Source of the DNA: a virus
IMG/VR virus record: IMGVR_UViG_3300037277_000026
Location: 1 to 41,784 of that record
Strand: one strand, 5' to 3'
DNA length: 41,784 nucleotides
This document shows, one piece after another, positions 33,228 to 40,371 of this stretch (positions are counted from its first letter, which is position 1; every line of letters starts with the position of its first letter). The position numbers and the translations under genes are program-made. Below the pieces are notes generated by a model. The model had not been told where the DNA came from. It was given only the letters and a program-made list of their open reading frames with translations, and did no database searches.

Positions 33228-33890
33228 ATGGCACAACTATTCCAAACCCCATTCGACGCCAACACAGTCAAACCAAATGAGGCTTTCGAGCCCTTGCCCG
33301 CTGGCTGGTACAATGCGCGGATCATCGCCAGCGAGGCGAAGCCGACGAAAGACAACAGTGGCGGATACCTTGAATTGCAGCTTGAGATCATCGACGGTGA
33401 GCACGCAAACCGCAAGGTGTTTGACCGCCTGAACCTGTGGAACGGCGGCGCGAATGCCGTCAAGGTGTGCGAGATTGCACAGCGCCAGCTTTCGGCGTAC
33501 TGCCATGCAACGGGCGTGCTGATCTTGCAGGACTCCAACCAGCTTCACGGAATTCCGCTGAAGATCAAGCTGGCCGTGCGCACGCAAGAAGGTTTCGAGC
33601 CTTCCAACGATGTCAAGGCTGTGAAGCACATCCAAGACGGTGGTGCAGCCGTTGCGCCTGCCTCGCCGTTTGCAGCGCCCGCACCTGCTGCTTCACCCTT
33701 CGCGCCGCCTGCCGCTGCGCCAGCCGTTGCGCCCTTCGGCCAGAATCCCGCGTTGCCACCGCAGCCTGCGCAGCCTTCTTTCATGCAGGGGCCTCCTGTA
33801 ACGGCAGCGCCAGCCGCGGCACCGTGGTCGCCTCCCGCTGTGCCTGCCGACGCCCCGTCTGCCGGTCCTGTTCCGCCCTGGCGAAAGTAG
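33228..33890 (+). CDS. ssDNA-binding protein (DUF669 type)
   Basis: 220 residues. The N-terminal ~130 (FEPLPAGWYNARIIASEAKP, LELQLEIIDGEHANRKVFDR, LNLWNGG) match DUF669, used as phage ssDNA-binding protein beside Sak4. The tail (about 140-220) is a long Ala/Pro linker ending GPVPPWRK, reminiscent of the flexible tail plus interacting tip of SSBs. SD AGGAGG. Confidence 0.82.
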   Translation: MAQLFQTPFDANTVKPNEAFEPLPAGWYNARIIASEAKPTKDNSGGYLELQLEIIDGEHANRKVFDRLNLWNGGANAVKVCEIAQRQLSAYCHATGVLILQDSNQLHGIPLKIKLAVRTQEGFEPSNDVKAVKHIQDGGAAVAPASPFAAPAPAASPFAPPAAAPAVAPFGQNPALPPQPAQPSFMQGPPVTAAPAAAPWSPPAVPADAPSAGPVPPWRK

Positions 33891-33907: not shown

Positions 33908-33929
33908 GGCACCCACTGTAAACGGTGCC
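33908..33929 (+). other. Hairpin upstream of tRNA-like element
   Basis: GGCACC-(10 nt)-GGTGCC perfect stem 18 bp after the SSB stop and 2 bp before the tRNA-like element. Could be a terminator remnant or an RNA-processing determinant. Confidence 0.45.
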
Positions 33930-33931
33930 AA

Positions 33932-34039
33932 GGAAGCGTGTTCTAATGGTCTGTTGCGCACGCCCGCGAGGTGGAAGGCGGACAGTCTCGGTAAGATACC
34001 ATTGATCAGGTAATGCAGGTTCGATTCCTGCCGCTTCCC
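33932..34039 (+). ncRNA. tRNA-like element 1 (non-canonical)
   Basis: GGAAGCG at the 5' end pairs perfectly with CGCTTCC (34032-34038), and between them a perfect T-arm GCAGG-TTCGATT-CCTGC (34015-34031) carries the conserved TTCGAxT loop. T8-G9 and a GG in the D-loop region are present. At 108 nt it is too long for a usual tRNA, however; I find no 5-bp/7-nt anticodon arm, and CCA is not encoded (CCG follows). The middle can fold otherwise (AATGGT/ACCATT, CTGT/ACAG, CGCC/GGCG). It is either a degenerate or insertion-bearing tRNA, a tRNA mimic, or an attP-like tRNA-end copy. Confidence 0.45.
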
Positions 34040-34052
34040 CGAAAGGACCGAC

Positions 34053-35000
34053 ATGGTTACAATAGCGCACAAGACCCTAGCAGCTATCCGCACCGCAATT
34101 GAAGCCGATCAAGGCGCGAAGTTCCGCACGTTGCTGCGCGAGTTGCTGCCGCTTGCCGAGGATGCTTACCGAGGTGAGGATGATCCTTTTCGCTCGCACC
34201 TTGGCGCAAGCGTGATCGGTGACGACTGTGCCCGTAAACTCTGGTACGGCTTCCACTGGACAACAGCAGCGGCACACACTGATCGCATTCTGCGCCTGTT
34301 CAATCGCGGACATTTGGAAGAGCCGCGTTTTGTGGCCATGCTCGCGGCTGCCGGGATCAAGGTGTATCAGTACAAAGCGCCAAGCGAGCAATTCAAGATC
34401 GCTCTGCACGGCGGGCACTTCGGTGGCAGCCTTGACGGCGTAGCCGAAAGCATCGCCGAGGTAGAAGGTCCTGTGTTGCTCGAATTCAAGACCCACAGCG
34501 CGAAGTCTTTCAACAAGCTAGCGGGAAACAATTGGGCGGCGCACAGCTTCGCACCTGAACAGTCAGGCAACGGCTTTGCAGGTGAAGGCGTCAGGCATTC
34601 CAAATTCACGCATTACGTGCAAATGCAGATGTATATGGCCGCGTATCAATTGCAGCACGCGCTTTACCTCGCTGTGTGCAAAGACGATGATTCACTGTAT
34701 GCCGAGATCGTGCCGACTGACGCTGCAATCAGCGACGCGTTTGCCAACCGAGCGCGCGAGATCATCTTTGCGCAGGAGCCGCCCGCGCGAATCAAAAACG
34801 ATCCCTCATGGTGGCAGTGCAAGTTCTGTGACAAAGCGCCAGTATGCTACGGCAAGGTAGCGCCTGCGCGCAACTGCCGGACGTGTGTGCAAAGTGAAGC
34901 ACTTCACGCAGGAACGTGGTTCTGCCATCTGCACCAAATCACGCTTGACAAGACCGCGCAGTTAGCCGGATGCCCAGAATACGGAGCGCGCAAGCTATGA
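34053..35000 (+). CDS. PD-(D/E)XK exonuclease (RecB/Cas4-like)
   Basis: 315 residues. Motifs: ASVIGDDCARKLWY (residues ~52-65), GGSLDGV with Asp128, LLEFKTHS with Glu144-x-Lys146, and HYVQMQMYMAAYQ (QxxxY). A C-terminal Cys cluster (CKFCDKAPVC, CRTC and further Cys/His) may hold Fe-S or zinc, as in Cas4/AddB-like nucleases. Together with Sak4 and DUF669 SSB it forms a phage homologous-recombination set, digesting ends to give 3' ssDNA. SD AAAGGA before ATG 34053. Confidence 0.85.
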   Translation: MVTIAHKTLAAIRTAIEADQGAKFRTLLRELLPLAEDAYRGEDDPFRSHLGASVIGDDCARKLWYGFHWTTAAAHTDRILRLFNRGHLEEPRFVAMLAAAGIKVYQYKAPSEQFKIALHGGHFGGSLDGVAESIAEVEGPVLLEFKTHSAKSFNKLAGNNWAAHSFAPEQSGNGFAGEGVRHSKFTHYVQMQMYMAAYQLQHALYLAVCKDDDSLYAEIVPTDAAISDAFANRAREIIFAQEPPARIKNDPSWWQCKFCDKAPVCYGKVAPARNCRTCVQSEALHAGTWFCHLHQITLDKTAQLAGCPEYGARKL

Positions 35001-35116
35001 GCCCTGGGCATCTTGCTTGGCTGCTGACCAAAGGCAAAGCCGAGATCATCGATCGGCAGACGTACACGCTGCTACTGACTTGGATGTCACCAAAGGCGAT
35101 CAAGCGTGATAACTGA
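34997..35116 (+). CDS. 39-residue ORF
   Basis: ATG overlaps the nuclease stop (ATGA) and the end overlaps the next GTG start by 11 bp, so it fits the coupled operon. Sequence MSPGHLAWLLTKGKAEIIDR and on; no family recognised. Confidence 0.5.
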   Translation: MSPGHLAWLLTKGKAEIIDRQTYTLLLTWMSPKAIKRDN

Positions 35117-35585
35117 TTTTGAAGTCAGCAAGGCAGCGCCGTCTGCAAAGCCCAAACGGCTCTACGATACGGAAGGTATGTATCTAGAGATCGCGCCGTC
35201 GGGCGGCAAGTGGTGGCGGCTGAAGTATCGCTTTGCGGGCAAAGAAAAGCTGATTTCATTAGGCACCTATCCCGATGTGAGCTTAGCGGACGCCAGAGAC
35301 AAGCGAGATGCAGCGCGTAAGCTGCTCCACGAGGGCACGGACCCGAGCGCCAAGCGCCACGCGGAGAAAGCGCAATTCATCGCCGCAAACACCGAAGCGA
35401 CGGAGGGCGACCTTGCGTATATAGCGCGCGCACAACTCCACGACGTGATTGAGACTACAGCACTATTCCTTGGTTTACCTCCCACAGCTACGTGGGCGCA
35501 GTGTAAGGCCAGCATGTTGAAGCGAAGCAGACCGCTAGCGCCGTGGGCACGCAAAATCCTGAAGGACGACAATGAAACCACGTGA
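35106..35585 (+). CDS. Stand-alone integrase arm-binding domain protein (DUF4102-like)
   Basis: 159 residues from GTG 35106. Residues ~1-85 have the arm-site-binding domain of P4-type tyrosine integrases: TDFEVSKAAPSAKPKRLYDT, YLEIAPSGGKWWRLKYRFAG, KLISLGTYPDVSLADARDKR and LLHEGTDPSAKRHAEK. In integrases this binds arm sites while a C-terminal domain with Arg-His-Arg-Tyr cuts DNA; here the catalytic domain is absent. Instead an unrelated ~70-residue tail ends the protein. It sits tightly inside the replication operon (overlapping helicase by 14 bp), so it is unlikely to be a fresh truncation. Probably a DNA-binding or architectural factor. Confidence 0.82.
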   Translation: MITDFEVSKAAPSAKPKRLYDTEGMYLEIAPSGGKWWRLKYRFAGKEKLISLGTYPDVSLADARDKRDAARKLLHEGTDPSAKRHAEKAQFIAANTEATEGDLAYIARAQLHDVIETTALFLGLPPTATWAQCKASMLKRSRPLAPWARKILKDDNETT

Positions 35586-39330: not shown

Positions 39331-39365
39331 CAATAGCGCCCGCTTGTGGGCATAAACGCAAGCTG

Positions 39366-39429
39366 GCAGATAGCAGGGCGCATGTGGAATGTGCGCGGCT
39401 GCGCAGTCGGTTCAAGTCCGATAATCTGC
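39366..39429 (+). ncRNA. tRNA-like element 2 (arm-less, 64 nt)
   Basis: GCAGAT (39366-39371) pairs with ATCTGC (39424-39429); the T-arm GTCGG-TTCAAGT-CCGAT (39406-39422) has one G-T pair. A 6-bp hairpin GCGCAT-GTGGAAT-GTGCGC lies between; read as an anticodon loop it would give GGA (Ser). There is no room for a D-arm. So it is either a degenerate D-armless tRNA or a mimic. The next gene's ATG follows after 3 nt, without SD. Confidence 0.4.
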
Positions 39430-39432
39430 ACG

Positions 39433-40371
39433 ATGGAACTTCTACAAGCCTTGAAGTTTGTAGCCGGTGCAGTCGCTAAAAGTGACTATCTGCCGTCACT
39501 GCAACACGTAGCAATCGGCGGCGGATACGTCGTCAGTTTCAACGGCACCGTCGCACTGTGCGCGCCTGTGGTGCTTGACCTTGCCGCCTGCCCGCGTGCT
39601 GACATCTTTGCAAAAGCTATCGCCGCCTGCACAGAGCCTGCGCAGCTTCACTTGACCGAGCAGGGCTTGCAGGTTCAATCGGGCGCGCTTCGTGTGACGG
39701 TGCCTTGCTCACAAGACACATTTCCGCGCGTGTTCCCGGAAGGCTTTGACTGCCTAATCGGCGGGCGCTTCCTGCCTGCGCTCAAAGCCCTGTTGCCTGT
39801 AGTGTCCACAGATGCGACCAAGCAATGGAGCAACGGAATACTTCTGCGTGGCTCGGCGGCCTACGCTACCAACAACACGATCCTAGCTGAATACCGGCTC
39901 GGCCACGTGCTGCCTATTGACGTGAATCTGCCGCTGGCTGCTGTCCGCGCCCTTGTCCACGAAGACGAAGAACCGACGCGACTACAGGTTAGCGAGCGCT
40001 CGGCAACATTCCATTTCAGTGATGGGCGTTGGCTTCGCACTTCGCTTTACCCTACAGTCTGGCCGCAGTCGCTCACGTCACTGTTGAGCCACACGGAAGC
40101 AACGCCGCTGCCTGACGGCTTCTTCGCGGCGCTGGCGCAGCTCGAAGGCTTTGTGGATGAAGACGTAGCTTTGTCTGCTGAAGGCTTGGCGACGTATCCT
40201 GATAACCGCGCCGCTGTTGCGCTCGCGGGGCTGCCTATTGGTTCGCGCTTCAGTCACGCGCAACTAGCCAAGCTAGCAGAGCTTGCAACGGCGATCAGCT
40301 TCGCAGACTACCCGCAGCCCTGCCGCTTCACCGGCGGTGACGCTCGCGGCGTGATAATAGGGAAGGTGTGA
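39433..40371 (+). CDS. Sliding-clamp-like protein (DnaN-type), probable
   Basis: 312 residues from ATG 39433. Three-fold similar segments (LLQALKFVAGAVAKSDYLPS, LPAFKALLP-like, FSHAQLAKLAELATAISFAD) and strand patterns LQHVAIGGGYVVSFNG and GRWLRTSLYPT resemble beta clamps; the end PCRFTGGDARGVIIGKV resembles the clamp C-terminus. It overlaps the polymerase start (ATGA), fitting a processivity factor. No SD is visible before 39433; a GTG at 39346 would run through the tRNA-like element. Assignment by pattern only. Confidence 0.6.
   Translation: MELLQALKFVAGAVAKSDYLPSLQHVAIGGGYVVSFNGTVALCAPVVLDLAACPRADIFAKAIAACTEPAQLHLTEQGLQVQSGALRVTVPCSQDTFPRVFPEGFDCLIGGRFLPALKALLPVVSTDATKQWSNGILLRGSAAYATNNTILAEYRLGHVLPIDVNLPLAAVRALVHEDEEPTRLQVSERSATFHFSDGRWLRTSLYPTVWPQSLTSLLSHTEATPLPDGFFAALAQLEGFVDEDVALSAEGLATYPDNRAAVALAGLPIGSRFSHAQLAKLAELATAISFADYPQPCRFTGGDARGVIIGKV

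Follow-up and report, generated by a model that had tools for sequence, protein, structure and literature searches.

Genomic context of the element

The window analysed here is the whole 41,784-nt stretch of a viral record in which minus-strand genes form the left block and plus-strand genes the right block. The right block encodes a Sak4 annealing protein, a DUF669-type single-strand DNA-binding protein (SSB), a Cas4-domain exonuclease, an Arm-DNA-binding ORF, a helicase and a DNA polymerase processivity factor (clamp). The 162-nt gap between the SSB and exonuclease genes contains a tRNA-like element (TLE1; Table 1), and its placement between these two genes and just ahead of a Shine-Dalgarno (SD) sequence, described in an earlier note on this DNA, agrees with the SSB stop at 33890, the AAAGGA motif and the exonuclease ATG. 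The SD (duplex energy -5.3 kcal/mol) lies within the 13-nt spacer between TLE1 and the start codon. Further downstream, the ORF at 35106-35585 (159 aa) comprises an Arm DNA-binding domain of the integrase N-terminal type (PF13356) only, without a catalytic domain.

Promoters and terminators were looked for at TLE1 and at the second element of this genome, TLE2, and none was found. The motif GGCACCCACT was considered as a repeated phage promoter and rejected, as the window holds one full-length copy.

Table 1. Features of the window and elements found after the SSB gene (ssb junction) in other phages.
Feature	Location	Strand	Description or evidence	Score
SSB, DUF669-type, gene upstream of TLE1	33228..33890	+	PHROG 6015 E 1.6e-49; Pfam DUF669	
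Stem-loop GGCACC-CACTGTAAAC-GGTGCC	33908..33929	+	Sequence; 2 nt (AA) separate it from the TLE1 acceptor stem	
TLE1, tRNA-like element, 107 nt + discriminator	33932..34039	+	Rfam tRNA score, fold, covariation, simulation	
Shine-Dalgarno AAAGGA	34042..34047	+	Sequence	
Cas4-domain exonuclease, gene downstream of TLE1, ATG 34053	34053..35000	+	PHROG 1990 E 8e-92	
Stem-loop GCCC-GCTTGT-GGGC, upstream of TLE2	39338..39351	+	Sequence	
TLE2, second tRNA-like element	39366..39430	+	Pairing scan; fold z -2.7	
DNA polymerase processivity factor (clamp)	39433..40371	+	PHROG 947, match from residue 29 of longer ORF, ~39430	
G001 (L003)	ssb junction		74 nt, near-complete tRNA, A33 for U33	49.3 bits
G002 (L004)	ssb junction		~54 nt, no anticodon arm, 6-nt T-loop, without D-loop GG	
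G003 (L005)	ssb junction		59 nt, no anticodon arm	
G004 (L006)	ssb junction		68 nt, 5-bp anticodon stem on 4-nt loop	54.1 bits
G005 (L007)	ssb junction		59 nt, no anticodon arm	
G007 (L143)	ssb junction		70 nt, misshapen anticodon arm	41.9 bits
G008 (L147)	ssb junction		120 nt, large insert in place of anticodon arm	
L240	ssb junction		Canonical tRNA-Thr(UGU)	65.5 bits

Structure of TLE1

TLE1 is a real RNA element, tRNA-derived in its layout. Its acceptor stem pairs 33932-33938 (GGAAGCG) with 34032-34038 (CGCTTCC) in seven of seven Watson-Crick pairs, and its T-arm pairs 34015-34019 (GCAGG) with 34027-34031 (CCTGC) in five of five around the canonical loop TTCGATT (34020-34026), confirming the two stems previously read from the letters. 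The discriminator N73 is C34039 and no CCA follows. A perfect T-arm with a 7-bp acceptor stem occurred in none of 150 windows simulated with a first-order Markov model and once in the real window (both strands), which bears out the view that the combination exceeds chance.

The middle of the element had been described as lacking an anticodon arm and as unlike a tRNA. A canonical 5+7 anticodon arm with U33 is indeed not present in TLE1, whose middle hairpins are unable to act as one; the position of that arm is taken by a hairpin (UACC AUUGAUCA GGUA, 33997-34012) with a 4-bp stem and an 8-nt loop. The middle nevertheless retains a 3-bp D-stem (UCU 33942-33944/AGA 33994-33996, approximate borders; UUCU/AGAU with one mismatch in the Rfam version) and a D-loop made up of AATGGT and an inserted hairpin (33951-33985). 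The GG within AATGGT may contribute to an elbow, and most relatives have this motif too, but the insert in the D-loop is large. By the test of the anticodon arm TLE1 is not a tRNA, and a decoding tRNA is excluded.

The tRNA-finding programs proposed for checking the element gave divided answers: the Rfam tRNA model (RF00005) scored it at 29.6 bits against a gathering score of 29 (E 6.5e-6, for this genome and that one family), placing a 43-nt insertion in the D-loop, whereas ARAGORN called neither a tRNA nor a tmRNA. A tmRNA was rejected on this ARAGORN result and because the permuted tmRNA match comprised a weak T-arm only (14.6 vs 47 bits); no other Rfam family gave a credible match, and a search of TLE1 DNA against known phages returned no match. 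The RNAfold minimum free energy structure includes both the acceptor and T-arm stems, and its energy does not stand out for a sequence of this composition (z -0.83), so that the evidence lies in the specific tRNA layout and the comparative data, and thermodynamics alone would miss TLE1.

Related phages and covariation

Relatives were found via the exonuclease (69-81% identity) and the SSB, close phages being few in the collections. A tRNA or tRNA-like element lies directly after the same SSB gene in eight other phages (Table 1), with lengths of about 54-120 nt, inserts included. Given the defects on their anticodon side, decoding would be unlikely or impossible in most of them. In the inspected cases a stem-loop precedes the acceptor by 2-14 nt, and the GGCACC..GGTGCC-AA-GG layout of the window recurs in G005 (L007) and G002 (L004), in both of which an apparent terminator precedes the element, which may there sit in a 5' leader.

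At the same junction G006 has a terminator-like hairpin only and no element, and many more distant relatives have a hairpin resembling an intrinsic terminator. Related genes occur in two known phages, Variovorax VPv64 and Stenotrophomonas Bhz54, where a terminator and other genes occupy the junction and no tRNA-like element was seen; a prophage search of genome contigs gave three weak relatives, with no such element in the two inspected.

Over nine elements, 96.3% of acceptor and T-arm cells are paired and two-sided changes are seen at 11 of the 12 pairs, a covariation count that is inflated because some of the elements were picked up by a scan requiring pairing; none of 500 shuffles reached the observed pairing and slid controls were 31-48% paired. 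Compensatory changes in related phages, on which the earlier note had made its proposal depend, are thus present. Full-score scan matches (7/7 and 5/5) over all loci were limited to the window, G001, G007, G008 and ordinary tRNAs, which argues that such matches rarely arise by chance. The comparison suggests that these are tRNAs whose decoding was lost while their acceptor/elbow half remained under selection.

CCA is encoded in none of the 12 elements compiled. The trinucleotide CGA, one base from CCA, follows the discriminator (positions 74-76) in 8 of these 12, two different gene junctions included.

Other structures were observed at the same junction. Just past the SSB stop, loci L003, L004, L005, L006, L007 and L011 carry a long hairpin with the conserved inner motif GCTGGGG(A/T)GYAAGYAAGC, which is more diverged in L011 and terminator-like in some, and whose pattern matches other viral contigs too. 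In the gap between the SSB and Cas4 exonuclease genes, L145 and L149 have in common an apparent pseudoknot (TGACAG/CTGTCA); after it come AAGG and a 7-bp helix that stops 3 nt before an SD-less ATG, and Rfam gave no match. Long helices of 13-20 bp close small domains in L009 (2912-2988), L260 (3463-3527), L241 (3389-3453) and L015 (2125-2273, containing GGAGTTCGAATCCC), and are possible RNase III sites.

A second element and start codons without Shine-Dalgarno sequences

The earlier note saw one element; TLE2, a second one ahead of the clamp gene, is additional, as are the SD-less genes adjoining elements. TLE2 has the acceptor GCAGAT/ATCTGC with A-A as the seventh pair, the T-arm GTCGG-TTCAAGT-CCGAT and A39430 as N73, and its middle is one elongated hairpin with GTGGAA in the loop and no anticodon arm. 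The scan threshold at which TLE2 was found admits about six chance hits per set, and the case for it rests on its position and fold. The clamp ATG lies 2 nt past the TLE2 discriminator and has no SD (duplex energy -0.2 kcal/mol).

Among the clamp leaders of relatives, that of G004 contains an element of 109 nt whose acceptor is perfect, the start codon lying in C-AAA-ATG, and that of G006 has a 109-nt acceptor/T-arm element farther upstream; no element was found in the clamp leaders of G003 and L295. Those of G002 and G005 are structured and, read by eye, have a common architecture in which a helix covaries (GATGG/CCATC, GGGG/CCCC). These two leaders (L193 and L195) contain ~300 nt of apparently noncoding, structured sequence without a match in Rfam, whose helices and hairpins have changed on both sides (GCGG..CCGC vs GCAG..CTGC).

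Eight genes start no more than 6 nt after an element (the clamps of the window, G002, G004 and G005, a gene of G007, the L240 phosphatase and the L145 and L149 exonucleases), a class that may be heterogeneous, four of the eight elements (the G002 and G005 clamp leaders, L145 and L149) being not clearly tRNA-like. Their SD energies, taken as the strongest duplex formed with the 16S tail, range from -0.2 to -2.9 kcal/mol, no better than the random-sequence mean of -3.6, whereas those of 12 comparators, which are the same genes or orthologues without an adjoining element or genes separated from a tRNA-like element by a spacer, range from -5.3 to -15.9 kcal/mol; the rank test gives p 0.0002, and 0.026 for clamp orthologues alone, for a grouping made after inspection. 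Exactly 2 nt separate N73 from the ATG in five of these cases, TLE2, G007 and L240 among them. A fold bridging an upstream SD was considered for these genes and rejected, no SD being there in at least five of the eight.

The earlier proposals and alternative explanations

The earlier note had proposed a tRNA mimic used for RNA processing or translational control, a direction that the comparative data favour and that is partly supported overall: the segments that RNase P and RNase Z recognise persist in related phages through compensatory changes, and the decoding arm is lost or variously deformed. In its translational form, the folded element would govern downstream initiation without cleavage, through a host tRNA-binding factor or ribosome docking, independently of an SD where it adjoins the AUG. 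The elements do lie directly upstream of starts, five of the adjoining ones at N73 + 2 nt with no SD, but TLE1 and most ssb-junction members retain a good SD outside the fold, neither the anticodon nor the loop sequence is conserved, SD bridging fails as described above, and the L240 element is an ordinary tRNA that should be processed; control without cleavage is thus unlikely. Degeneration of tRNA genes that were inserted at the junction and now have no function would account for the gradient from the canonical tRNA of L240 through the near-complete one of G001 to the fragments of G003, G005 and G002. It is nonetheless quite improbable, as many compensatory changes preserve the acceptor and T-arm and the anticodon arm alone decays, the upstream stem-loop and the absence of CCA recur, and the same genome has a second such element at another gene junction.

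A stable small RNA, decoy or regulator, would make the mRNA cut a by-product. The predicted product would be tRNA-sized and have CCA added, like mascRNA (PMC11693755), but the loop sequence and middle domain are not conserved among relatives, and an RNA without an anticodon loop cannot bait anticodon nucleases, which leaves this reading very improbable. The suggestion of a bait for host tRNA-targeting defence fits poorly with an anticodon loop that is absent or deformed in most members, and a role as anticodon-nuclease bait is unlikely. That TLE1 is a functional but aberrant tRNA is scarcely credible: set against an Rfam score barely above the cut-off are the missing 5+7 anticodon arm and the negative ARAGORN result, and the sequences of relatives, in which the anticodon loop has 4 nt or the arm is missing, refute it for most members.

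Proposed role in mRNA processing

TLE1 is probably a tRNA-gene derivative without a decoding arm that serves as an RNase P/RNase Z processing signal in a polycistronic replication/recombination mRNA. One mRNA would span the genes, and host RNase P would cut at the 5' end of TLE1, after A33931, so that the ssb mRNA would end in the stem-loop at 33908-33929, which may stabilise it. RNase Z would cut after N73, giving an exonuclease mRNA with a 13-nt leader that carries the SD. TLE2 would play the same role before the clamp gene, where the cut would leave a 2-nt leader (CG-AUG) and translation would start on a near-leaderless mRNA.

RNase P and RNase Z recognise the acceptor and elbow and not the anticodon arm, and the parts kept and lost in the phage elements match these requirements. 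The upstream stem-loops are placed where the preceding mRNA, once cut, would need its 3' end protected, and the structure adjoining the start codon in L240 is a normal tRNA, for whose maturation a 3' cut is required. As no CCA is encoded, RNase Z is the candidate 3' cutter of TLE1; this enzyme acts on CCA-less precursors (PMC4810234).

The mascRNA of MALAT1 and the menRNA of NEAT1 are cut by RNase P on the 5' side and by RNase Z on the 3' side; neither enzyme needs a decoding arm there, acceptor, T-arm and D-loop guanines being enough (PMC11693755). Like the phage elements, they keep acceptor and T-arm beside a non-decoding anticodon side; their elbow forms from D-loop guanines and T-loop (PMC11693755), and the phage elements may form one in the same way. 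A kept acceptor and T-arm with a non-canonical anticodon side are found in the window and most relatives. The human RNAs derive from nuclear long noncoding RNAs and their upstream product is a long RNA, whereas here processing is predicted in phage mRNA between coding genes.

In mitochondrial polycistronic transcripts tRNA structures between genes mark the cuts, and the downstream mRNAs have very short leaders or none, in contrast to bacteria, whose ribosomes normally use an SD. Short or absent leaders are likewise predicted for TLE2, G007 and L240, but mitochondrial tRNAs also decode and the phage elements mostly cannot. Bacterial and phage tRNA genes are also co-transcribed with mRNA, as in the E. 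coli tRNA-tufB operon, and RNase P cuts the C4 RNAs of P1/P7 and the CI immunity RNA of P4. There, as proposed here, host tRNA-processing enzymes act on transcripts containing mRNA or phage RNA as well; the products are a working tRNA or an antisense RNA, whereas TLE1 would be a tRNA relic of which the processing signal alone is kept. T7-like phages have intercistronic RNase III sites, structured cuts between early genes, and the long ssb-junction helices of L009, L260 and L241 could be such sites; the window element is a tRNA-like fold and not a long perfect helix.

It is possible, if still doubtful, that this phage lineage uses tRNAs and anticodon-less relics as general mRNA punctuation cut by RNase P and RNase Z, in a mitochondria-like layout in which the cut, at some of them, makes near-leaderless mRNAs that take the place of SD initiation. 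No account of phage mRNAs punctuated by anticodon-less tRNAs came up in a search of open-licence papers, a result that speaks only weakly for novelty. If the proposal is true, phages strip tRNA genes of decoding and reuse them purely as RNA-processing signals, and the elements form a natural series from a working tRNA to a minimal RNase P/RNase Z substrate. An element at the start codon offers a testable case of leaderless translation made by tRNA processing in bacteria, and among the 'tRNA-???' or sub-threshold calls made in phages there may be processing signals that are neither tRNAs nor junk.
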